Positions 16,366 through 17,783 of a stretch of DNA of 64,000 nucleotides are shown piece after piece. This stretch comes from Halomonas sp. (GTDB lineage: Bacteria; Pseudomonadota; Gammaproteobacteria; Pseudomonadales; Halomonadaceae): the NCBI RefSeq assembly GCF_020832045.1, contig NZ_JAFIFK010000047.1, positions 62,001-126,000 on the forward strand. The letters run 5' to 3'. Position numbers and translations under genes: made by a program. Numbering within the stretch: the first letter of the stretch is position 1; every line of letters starts with the position of its first letter. Under the pieces are notes generated by a model that was not told the DNA's origin, searched no databases, and worked only from the letters and a program-made list of their open reading frames with translations.

Positions 16366-16872
16366 ATGAACATTGCCCCCCAGCGGGTCGTGACCCTGCA
16401 TTACGTGCTAAGCGACGCACAGGGCCAGGTGCTCGACGATTCGCGGGCGCGTGCCACGCCCCTCGAGTATTTGCATGGCCATGACAACATCATGATCGGC
16501 CTGGAACGTGAGCTGGCGGGCCACGTGCCGGGTGACAGGCTGACCGTTACCTTGGCGCCTGTAGATGCCTATGGTGAGCGTAACGAGAACCTGATTCAGT
16601 CGTTCGGTCGCAGTGCATTTCCTCAACGCGATCTGGCATCCGGTATGCGCTTTCAAACGCCGGGAGATGACGGGCCTCAGGTCATTACCGTCATCGAGGT
16701 GCGGGATGACTCGGTGATGGTCGATACCAACCACCCCTTGGCTGGGCAAACCCTGAGCTATGCGCTCGAGGTATTGCAAGTACGCGAGGCAAGTCGTGCC
16801 GAGCTGGCCAAAGGCCACCCCCTCCCTGCCGATGTCGCGCCATCCCAGGTGGAAGATCGCAAGCTTCCTTGA
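16366..16872 (+). CDS. FKBP-type peptidyl-prolyl isomerase, SlyD-like
   Basis: A 168-residue folding helper. The FKBP half-domains VVTLHYVLSDAQGQVLDDS and PLEYLHGHDNIMIGLERELAGHVPGDRLTVTLAPVDAYGERNENLIQ flank an insert-in-flap region (residues 75-125), as in SlyD, giving chaperone plus prolyl isomerase activity. The metal-binding His/Cys-rich tail of E. coli SlyD is missing; the protein ends after a short charged tail. FkpB is an alternative family. Located 37 bases after rfaH, so cotranscription is possible. Confidence 0.82.
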   Translation: MNIAPQRVVTLHYVLSDAQGQVLDDSRARATPLEYLHGHDNIMIGLERELAGHVPGDRLTVTLAPVDAYGERNENLIQSFGRSAFPQRDLASGMRFQTPGDDGPQVITVIEVRDDSVMVDTNHPLAGQTLSYALEVLQVREASRAELAKGHPLPADVAPSQVEDRKLP

Positions 16873-16897: not shown

Positions 16898-16969
16898 AAA
16901 ACTGACCTGCATCAATTTGCCGAATTCCTTGCAACGGGCCCGAGGCGAAATTTGATGCAGGTCAGTTTT
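16898..16969 (+). promoter_or_regulatory. Two FNR/ANR-type boxes in an inverted 18-bp repeat
   Basis: A perfect 18-bp inverted repeat has arms at 16898-16915 and 16952-16969 (AAAACTGACCTGCATCAA and its complement). Each arm contains TTGATGCAGGTCAG, which fits the FNR/ANR box TTGAT-N4-(A/G)TCAA at all but the last position. The box centres are 16908.5 and 16958.5, exactly 50 bp apart. The downstream box lies 29.5 bp before a TAGAGT hexamer, the spacing of a class II FNR promoter (centre at -41.5), which puts the second box near -91.5. The target is the small membrane protein at 17029. Confidence 0.72.
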
Positions 16970-16987
16970 CCCATGTCTTCAACAGGC

Positions 16988-16993
16988 TAGAGT
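16988..16993 (+). promoter_or_regulatory. -10 hexamer of the predicted FNR-dependent promoter
   Basis: TAGAGT matches four of six bases of TATAAT and sits at the distance from the proximal FNR-type box that class II activation requires. Predicted transcription start is near 17000, leaving a leader of about 29 bases that includes GGGGAG at 17015-17020, eight bases before the ATG. There is no recognisable -35 hexamer, as expected for an activator-dependent promoter. Confidence 0.55.
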
Positions 16994-17028
16994 GAACTCA
17001 TCGCATCAGGTGACGGGGAGAAACCACT

Positions 17029-17145
17029 ATGTACTGGGATGAGGCAGTAATTTTCGGGCTGGTAACCGTCGCGATGATGATCGCATTCATGGCAGGTTGG
17101 GTCGGCTTCGTGGTCCGCGACCATCGTCGCAAGCGCAAGCACTGA
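17029..17145 (+). CDS. CcoM-like 38-residue single-pass membrane protein
   Basis: ATG 17029 to TGA 17145 encodes 38 residues beginning MYWDEAVIFGLVTVAMM. A single hydrophobic helix (about residues 6-29) ends in VVRDHRRKRKH, so the positive tail should be cytoplasmic. Length, layout and the MYWD/VTV/AF pattern resemble CcoM, the small accessory subunit of cbb3 cytochrome oxidase described in Pseudomonas stutzeri, which is also encoded away from the ccoNOPQ genes. The upstream FNR/ANR-type promoter fits low-oxygen expression. It has its own promoter and its own terminator, so it is a single-gene unit. The assignment rests on resemblance by eye. Confidence 0.62.
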   Translation: MYWDEAVIFGLVTVAMMIAFMAGWVGFVVRDHRRKRKH

Positions 17146-17196
17146 GTCAGCCTAGTTAGCAAGTCGTCAGGGGAGGGGGGAGTTTTCCCCCCAGTA

Positions 17197-17223
17197 GCCG
17201 GCCCAATTGGGCCGGCATTTTTT
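17197..17223 (+). terminator. Rho-independent terminator after the CcoM-like gene
   Basis: An 8-bp GC-rich stem GCCGGCCC / GGGCCGGC closes on AATT and is followed by ATTTTTTC. It ends the small-protein transcript about 50 bases after the stop codon. A second short hairpin (GGGGGGAG/TTTTCCCCCC-like) lies just upstream. Confidence 0.88.
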
Positions 17224-17297
17224 CGTGGTAGACTCCGCTTGAAATACTACGTCGATGGTTCAGTCGACACCATAAGAAGAACGAGGGAGTCTTGACC

Positions 17298-17783
17298 ATG
17301 CTCAACCTTGGTCACAAGGTGCGTTTCCCTGCTCCAGGGCTGCTGATTGTCGGTTTGCTGTTGGGTTCTACCGCCCAGGCCAATCCTGACACGCTGCAGC
17401 TGCGCGACGGTGACAGAGACATTACGCTCTCGGTCGAAGCGCTGCGAGAGCGAGCGGATGTCGAGTTTCGCTTCTACGAACCTTATCTGACGGAAGACAC
17501 CGAGATGCGGGGGCTGGTCTTCCGCGACTTGCTCATCGAACATTTCGGTCGTGTGCCGCCTCAGCTTCATTTCCAGGCCTGGGATGACTACGACGTGACC
17601 TTGGCAGGCTGGGACGACCCCAACTGGATTCTCGTGACTCACCAGAACGGCGAGCCCATCAGCCTGCGCGACCGTGGCCCTCTGCGCCTGGTCGAGCGTG
17701 ATTACGGCAATCGCGACCCCGACAACCTACGCAACTTCAACGACTGGGTTTGGATGATCCGCAGCATCGAGGCGGTATGGTAG
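17298..17783 (+). CDS. Exported SUOX-like-fold protein without Moco cysteine, partner of diguanylate cyclase
   Basis: A 161-residue protein from ATG 17298 with a signal peptide (LLIVGLLLGSTAQA). The mature part (EMRGLVFRDLLIEHFG, DDYDVTLAGWDDPNWILVTHQNGE, RGPLRLVERD, NDWVWMIRSIEAVW) resembles small members of the sulfite-oxidase-type molybdopterin-binding fold. It contains no cysteine at all, so it cannot ligate molybdenum in the canonical way and is more likely a binding protein. Its stop overlaps the start region of the next gene, a membrane diguanylate cyclase with a periplasmic domain, which suggests a periplasmic sensor-partner. The fold assignment is tentative. Confidence 0.55.
   Translation: MLNLGHKVRFPAPGLLIVGLLLGSTAQANPDTLQLRDGDRDITLSVEALRERADVEFRFYEPYLTEDTEMRGLVFRDLLIEHFGRVPPQLHFQAWDDYDVTLAGWDDPNWILVTHQNGEPISLRDRGPLRLVERDYGNRDPDNLRNFNDWVWMIRSIEAVW

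Follow-up and report, generated by a model that had tools for sequence, protein, structure and literature searches.

In the passages cited here, the small RNA PhrS needs Anr in Pseudomonas aeruginosa, acts on pqsR and CRISPR RNA, lowers cyoAB, and encodes a conserved 37-aa peptide; a 12-nt creg element (nucleotides 169-182 of PhrS) is needed for the effects on both pqsR and CRISPR RNA, and the CRISPR effect was not recovered when only the PhrS open reading frame (ORF) was restored. The function of this peptide is listed as unknown in the cited portions of reviews from 2021 and 2022 as well as of a 2021 paper, and the peptide goes unnamed in those of a 2017 paper. CcoM, in turn, is called a subunit of the Pseudomonas stutzeri cbb3 oxidase in the text cited for it. 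Class II FNR promoters, PhrS and the CcoM family have all been described before; within the literature passages searched, no paper joined PhrS with CcoM or cbb3, and two papers outside the scope of that search (Kohlstaedt 2016 and Sonnleitner 2011) may do so. Here, we analyzed a 64-kb window (by which we mean the whole stretch of DNA studied) from a 4.08-Mb Halomonas draft genome, and sequence comparisons lead us to hold with considerable confidence that it contains the Halomonas-family phrS/ccoM gene: one Anr/FNR-activated transcript that would combine a CcoM ORF with a regulatory 3' end.

Promoter geometry and layout of the locus

The locus follows a gene for an FKBP-type prolyl isomerase (16366..16872, + strand; Pfam FKBP_C 4.7e-9; 119.6 bits against NCBIfam PRK10737, below the cut-off of 174). 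Past this gene lies a perfect 18-bp inverted repeat (16898..16969), whose arms at 16898-16915 and 16952-16969 contain two FNR/ANR-type boxes and which extends to 21 nt at 95%. Scored over 10 positions against TTGATNNNNATCAA, the distal box CTGACCTGCATCAA (16902..16915) and the proximal box TTGATGCAGGTCAG (16952..16965) each match at 8/10, with their centers 50 bp apart. The -10 hexamer TAGAGT (16988..16993, + strand), from which we predict a transcription start near 17000, begins 29 bp past the proximal box center; this is class II geometry, with the boxes at about -91.5 and -41.5 from the predicted start. These coordinates confirm the first-pass annotation of this DNA, which had described a perfect 18-bp inverted repeat carrying two FNR/ANR boxes 50 bp apart and had placed the proximal box at the class II distance from a -10. 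Searching the 64-kb window with the pattern TTGATNNNNRTCAR at zero mismatches returned only the two box sites, compared with a chance level of 0.29 expected per window and at least two matches in 4/100 shuffles. Rfam microRNA matches over the inverted repeat were set aside as a probable chance resemblance to a hairpin.

Downstream of the predicted start, a Shine-Dalgarno-like GGGGAG (17015..17020, + strand), read from the sequence and falling in a block that is purine-rich in aligned relatives too, precedes the 38-codon ccoM (17029..17145, + strand), which encodes a single membrane-spanning cbb3 oxidase subunit as judged by its family match, alignment and codon conservation (see below). An intrinsic terminator of 8 GC pairs and a T run follows at 17197..17223 (+ strand); the terminator scan by itself is not above chance (1 found vs. 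1.2 expected), and the structure recurs in relatives. The 38-codon ORF with a terminator of its own, also claimed earlier, is thus present. Further downstream are a 163-aa ORF (17292-17783), which is without an NCBIfam match and whose sole Pfam match, to molybdopterin oxidoreductase, is weak (E 0.23), and then a GGDEF protein.

We compared this arrangement across ccoM loci from whole genomes and from a scan of named genomes, with P. aeruginosa itself outside the fetched names; the two sets may overlap, as L015 and L059 share protein and boxes. Two boxes of at least 7/10 at a spacing of 49-51 bp were found at 28/30 whole-genome loci (the window's own included) and at 109/120 named-scan loci among those listed; at 3 of the 11 misses, the upstream sequence is no longer than 108 bp. 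The chance rate of such a pair, estimated from mononucleotide shuffles of the 30 whole-genome loci, is 0.0023 per sequence. Among the loci listed, all 43 Halomonas-type loci measured have this spacing (34 at exactly 50 bp), as do 94/104 other loci, the remainder comprising 3 at 47, 48 or 52 bp and 7 without a second box; at 143/147 of the loci listed, the distance from the proximal center to a -10-like hexamer is 28-29 bp. Outside these sets, departures from the common spacing include boxes 60 bp apart in G001 and 61 bp apart in three loci that lack a ccoM ORF, or approximately one helical turn more, and single boxes only at the ccoM of G033 and G035. A stricter paired pattern, CTGAYNNNNRTCAA-N35-37-TTGAYNNNNRTCAR, has a single occurrence in each of 26 genomes out of 58; that occurrence is at ccoM in 25 of them and at a ccoM-like locus without an ORF in the other (G022).

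Among the loci listed, fully complementary boxes were found at 7/43 Halomonas-type promoters vs. 0/97 others, and most Pseudomonas loci carry the distal box in the opposite orientation. The perfect inverted repeat is therefore local to the window and a few others, and the conserved feature is the box pair rather than the repeat. Across the loci compared, paired boxes and the position of the -10 are conserved from Halomonas to Pseudomonas, and the general occurrence of a second box some 50 bp farther upstream appears to be new when set against the PhrS and FNR passages cited.

The 38-residue peptide, its transcript and the cbb3 oxidase

The first-pass annotation had likened the peptide to CcoM, and comparison with CcoM sequences upholds this. 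Against the NCBIfam equivalog model NF041600, the peptide scores 59.5 bits (cut-off 40) over positions 1-34 of 34, and it aligns without gaps to chain N of PDB entry 5djq, with 16/35 residues identical; the entry names this chain 'putative uncharacterized protein', and we take it, after Kohlstaedt et al. 2016, to be P. stutzeri CcoM. Pfam returned only sub-threshold matches on the 38-aa protein. The gene is single-copy in the genome, and its codons are under purifying selection, with pN/pS of 0.18 across 27 Halomonas-type genes and 0.165 across 99 Pseudomonas-type genes among the loci listed. By homology, then, the 38-residue peptide is CcoM, and we would expect it to assemble into cbb3 in Halomonas as well. 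Named contigs with the same CcoM type (MYW/MYL...) are labeled Halomonas, Billgrantia or Vreelandella where a label was seen among the loci listed. Two CcoM matches per genome were observed in G061 (genus g24) and in G178-G182 (g36).

The same stretch also matches the RNA family PhrS. RF01673 aligns to 16992..17225 (+ strand) over model positions 1-212 of 212 with 32.4 bits (E 2.4e-6), a score that lies below the gathering threshold of 37 and much of which could stem from coding sequence. Across the 58 genomes searched (the window's own and its relatives), RF01673 matches in 34, 8 of them above gathering; 33 coincide with the place of CcoM, and one lies in a genome without a CcoM match (G046). 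A match below cut-off was also found in 1/14 control genomes (Bacillus subtilis). In the reverse direction, Rfam assigned every one of the 18 Pseudomonas-group ccoM loci submitted to it (from the 120 loci listed) to PhrS at gathering, and the ORF of the PhrS consensus is CcoM, scoring 67.2 bits on NF041600 and 9.9e-15 against 5djq chain N. A Stutzerimonas locus (L098) joins both identities, with a PhrS match of 156 bits and an ORF that matches 5djq chain N at 2.7e-19, differing from it at 2/35 residues. Since the PhrS consensus ORF is CcoM and every Pseudomonas-group ccoM locus given to Rfam is PhrS, PhrS appears to be the ccoM mRNA, and the PhrS peptide appears to be CcoM.

The window locus has what a phrS orthologue would be expected to have: an internal conserved ORF, an Anr-type promoter and a terminator. 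The earlier reading had recognized the promoter, the CcoM-like gene and the terminator, and these stand; what it had missed is the PhrS-type RNA with a conserved 3' element. Two individual loci merit mention. In Pseudomonas gingeri A8002 (L089), the ccoM/phrS frame ends after 21 codons and the promoter boxes are present. A contig labeled Pantoea sp. Cy-639 (L045) carries a Pseudomonas-type PhrS/ccoM (211.8 bits) together with the Pseudomonas sRNA P18, so that the record may be a mislabeled Pseudomonas.

The organism has a cbb3 oxidase, as its genome encodes ccoN (764.8 bits). A cluster on contig C11 brings ccoN together with ccoO and ccoG, hemN, a heavy-metal ATPase positioned where CcoI usually lies, and a gene of the Fnr family (NF008365, 284.9 bits, cut-off 228). 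Because ccoM lies on contig C20, apart from this cluster, it is an orphan, in agreement with the earlier description. Within the 58-genome set, CcoM was found in 35 genomes (34 above cut-off) and ccoN above cut-off in 50. CcoM is present in 34/51 genomes with full or partial ccoN vs. 1/7 without (p = 0.013), the sole ccoN-less carrier among the latter being an 85% complete genome (G003), and under strict cut-offs in 33/50 with ccoN vs. 2/8 without (p = 0.048); because the genomes are related, these p-values are only indicative. Within the genus, no CcoM match was obtained in five genomes that do carry ccoN (G014, G018, G021, G022 and G029), so CcoM seems dispensable there.

No box of 8/10 lies within 500 bp upstream of the genome's own ccoN, and two boxes of 7/10 do lie upstream of it, at L160:15541-15554 and L160:15626-15639. 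One ccoN-upstream box, CTGACCTGCATCAC, is close to the distal ccoM box, and another, TCGACACGCGTCAA, has a -10-like TATCCT at the class II distance of 29 bp. These boxes and hexamer make shared control of ccoN and ccoM possible, with that of ccoN being weaker on paper.

The 3' element and loci without a CcoM reading frame

Between the ccoM stop and the terminator, the window carries a 3'-UTR element, GTCGTCAGGGGAGGGG (17163..17178, + strand; +164 to +179), whose end overlaps a G-tract/C-tract hairpin seen in predicted folds (17175..17192, + strand). No creg was found downstream of the window ORF; the element sits instead at the same distance, in the place that creg takes in Pseudomonas PhrS. 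For this comparison, creg letters were derived from conservation together with the published position, and element positions are numbered relative to the -10-predicted start. Pseudomonas-type 3' UTRs hold GCACGCAAGGCA at 95/98 of the loci listed, and in 86 of the 93 measurable Pseudomonas-type loci among those listed, the start of CACGCAAGGC falls between +165 and +170. This position is close to the published creg at 169-182 and thereby also supports the start-site prediction. In Halomonas-type loci, GUCGUCAGGGGAGGGG is followed by the G/C-tract hairpin and then the terminator, and its start ranges from +160 to +175 across the 15 named Halomonas-type loci measured among those listed (+164 in the window). 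The 3' elements are, in other words, lineage-specific occupants of a shared position.

At 26/27 Halomonas-type whole-genome loci (counted by place), no more than 90 nt separate the ccoM stop from an exact 14-mer of this element, GTCAGGGGAGGGGG. Counted by genome rather than by place, the 14-mer occurs in 145/275 family genomes and in 126/165 of those with CcoM, leaving 39/165 CcoM-bearing family genomes without the exact 14-mer. The right arm of the hairpin varies in part of the sequences while the G-tract stays fixed; as the 14-mer was the search criterion for both the structure set and the ORF-less set described below, its invariance in those sets is no evidence. Elements with one mismatch also turned up in G018 and G021; the part of the stretch read that lies upstream of them lacks a pair of FNR-type boxes, and we regard these elements as probable chance matches.

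The 14-mer is also found in 19 family genomes that have no CcoM match. In 17 of these, which span four genera (g1, g23, g27 and g44), an FNR-type box of at least 7/10 is followed by a -10 at exactly 29 bp, then by the element, and then by a terminator; the remaining two (G148 and G160) have no box at the class II distance and were dropped from the ORF-less set. The element lies 17-221 nt past the predicted start, with two g23 genomes having it only 17 and 27 nt after. As controls, we used 8 14-mer copies among the matches listed, namely the other 2 of the 19 and 6 second copies, none of which (0/8) has such a promoter and 2/8 of which have some stem before a T run. Boxes at a spacing of 49-51 bp are retained in only 4/17 ORF-less loci. 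By eye, we found a recognizable ccoM remnant in G114 and a possible one in G239 and G247, and the predicted RNA of G059 is about 83 nt long with three hairpins (z -4.8). G022 and G029, the two ORF-less genomes examined for ccoN, still have it. In the g27 transcripts (L172-L176), further blocks that look conserved lie upstream of the element, a CCCCTTGGGG-type stem among them.

Taken as sequence evidence, the protein appears to be gone from several relatives that have kept the RNA; loss is called here from the absence of an NF041600 match together with a reading of the stretches (a very diverged ORF is conceivable), and the 17 are genomes counted rather than independent losses. The retention of an FNR-type promoter, element and terminator without CcoM in these 17 relatives suggests that the RNA probably has a job of its own, and selection acting on the RNA part of the ORF-less loci in its own right is the simplest interpretation.

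Proposed mechanism, alternatives and comparison with known systems

In the mechanism we propose, low oxygen would activate Anr, as is in print for Pseudomonas in the passages cited. Judging from the geometry, Anr bound at the proximal box at -41.5 would recruit RNA polymerase as a class II activator, with the second box about 50 bp upstream modulating activation in one direction or the other (the first-pass annotation had conjectured a different behavior at high FNR), and a single transcript of about 220 nt would run from the start near 17000. CcoM would thus be made as oxygen falls and, by homology, would join cbb3 as a small extra subunit, while the 3' element before the terminator may act as a regulatory RNA that pairs with other RNAs, with GUCAGGGGAGGGG as the candidate pairing stretch. 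In Pseudomonas, the same transcript would be the sRNA PhrS, from which it would follow that the PhrS peptide is CcoM. The FNR/ANR control proposed in the first-pass annotation is supported indirectly, by the conserved geometry, the Fnr-family gene in the cco cluster and the Anr-dependent homologue PhrS, and ccoM is probably switched on by an oxygen sensor.

Some of these observations can be read differently. The transcript may be a plain Anr-regulated ccoM mRNA, whose 3' element only stabilizes the message or aids termination and has no trans role in Halomonas; strong codon-level selection on ccoM, an element that adjoins hairpin and terminator, and the 39/165 CcoM genomes without the exact element would all fit. 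Such an account has difficulty, however, with the element and class II promoter kept in 17 genomes without a CcoM match, with the two g23 loci whose element lies 17 and 27 nt past the predicted start, and with the folding of the predicted 83-nt RNA of G059 (z -4.8). Given a promoter that is kept without an ORF, mRNA stabilization alone is hardly the reason, and we consider this account unlikely, if deserving of serious attention. The identity of the activator raises a separate question, as the genome has 7 CRP-type matches and an N-terminal CxxCx5C pattern was seen in 3/6 CRP-type sequences read, so that another CRP/FNR-family protein, such as a Dnr-like NO sensor, might bind the boxes instead of Anr. 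That homologous phrS needs Anr in P. aeruginosa, according to the passages cited, and that an Fnr-family gene sits within the cco cluster itself both make this improbable.

A further reading, to which we give very little credence, makes the inverted repeat primarily a hairpin with a long stem, serving to terminate or insulate the FKBP gene, with the FNR boxes as a by-product. The corresponding 76-nt RNA is predicted to be very stable (-38.5 kcal/mol, z -7.3), a short T run comes after it, and in 33/43 Halomonas-type loci among those listed, at least 3 of the 4 bases immediately flanking the boxes are complementary. Full box complementarity, however, is confined to 7/43 Halomonas-type loci and 0/97 others among those listed, box sequences, box spacing and -10 placement are retained regardless, and the distal box is in the other orientation in most Pseudomonas loci listed.

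Weighing these points, we lean, with some reserve, toward an interpretation in which PhrS is a cbb3-subunit mRNA, the ccoM 3' end is an exchangeable regulatory slot (creg vs. a G-rich element), and the protein was lost in several Halomonadaceae genera, leaving an Anr-activated sRNA. With the protein lost and a non-coding sRNA remaining, a coding gene would have turned into a regulatory RNA gene, and the ORF-less relatives would offer a natural experiment on that transition. As far as the literature was searched, the equation of the PhrS peptide with CcoM, the Halomonadaceae 3' element and the ORF-less derivatives appear to be new. The PhrS peptide, listed without a function in the cited passages of the 2021 and 2022 reviews, would gain an identity. 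If this interpretation is true, oxygen-controlled quorum sensing and CRISPR regulation in Pseudomonas would be tied directly to the high-affinity oxidase, and phrS deletion phenotypes would mix RNA and oxidase-subunit effects; the drop in cyoAB under PhrS, reported in the passages cited, merits re-examination.

Set beside known systems, the locus shares features with each. E. coli FnrS is an FNR-activated sRNA, and FNR-type activation of a short RNA is common to it, to other such sRNAs and to the locus described here; to our knowledge, FnrS does not carry an oxidase subunit. The E. coli yfiD promoter has two FNR sites, the second about 50 bp upstream, and shares the class II site with ccoM, the yfiD gene itself being unrelated; the part of a published table cited here enters one FNR site for yfiD, at -40.5. 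Compared with P. stutzeri CcoM (5djq chain N), the Halomonas peptide is of the same length class, with 16/35 identical residues and a single membrane helix, and differs in a GW-containing helix variant and an H/R/K-rich C-terminus. Compared with Pseudomonas PhrS (RF01673), the window scores 32.4, below the Rfam threshold of 37, and by homology has the same gene, with an Anr-type promoter, a CcoM ORF, a 3' element at about +165 and a terminator; where the Pseudomonas transcript has creg (GCACGCAAGGCA), the Halomonas-type transcript has GUCGUCAGGGGAGGGG and an extra hairpin.
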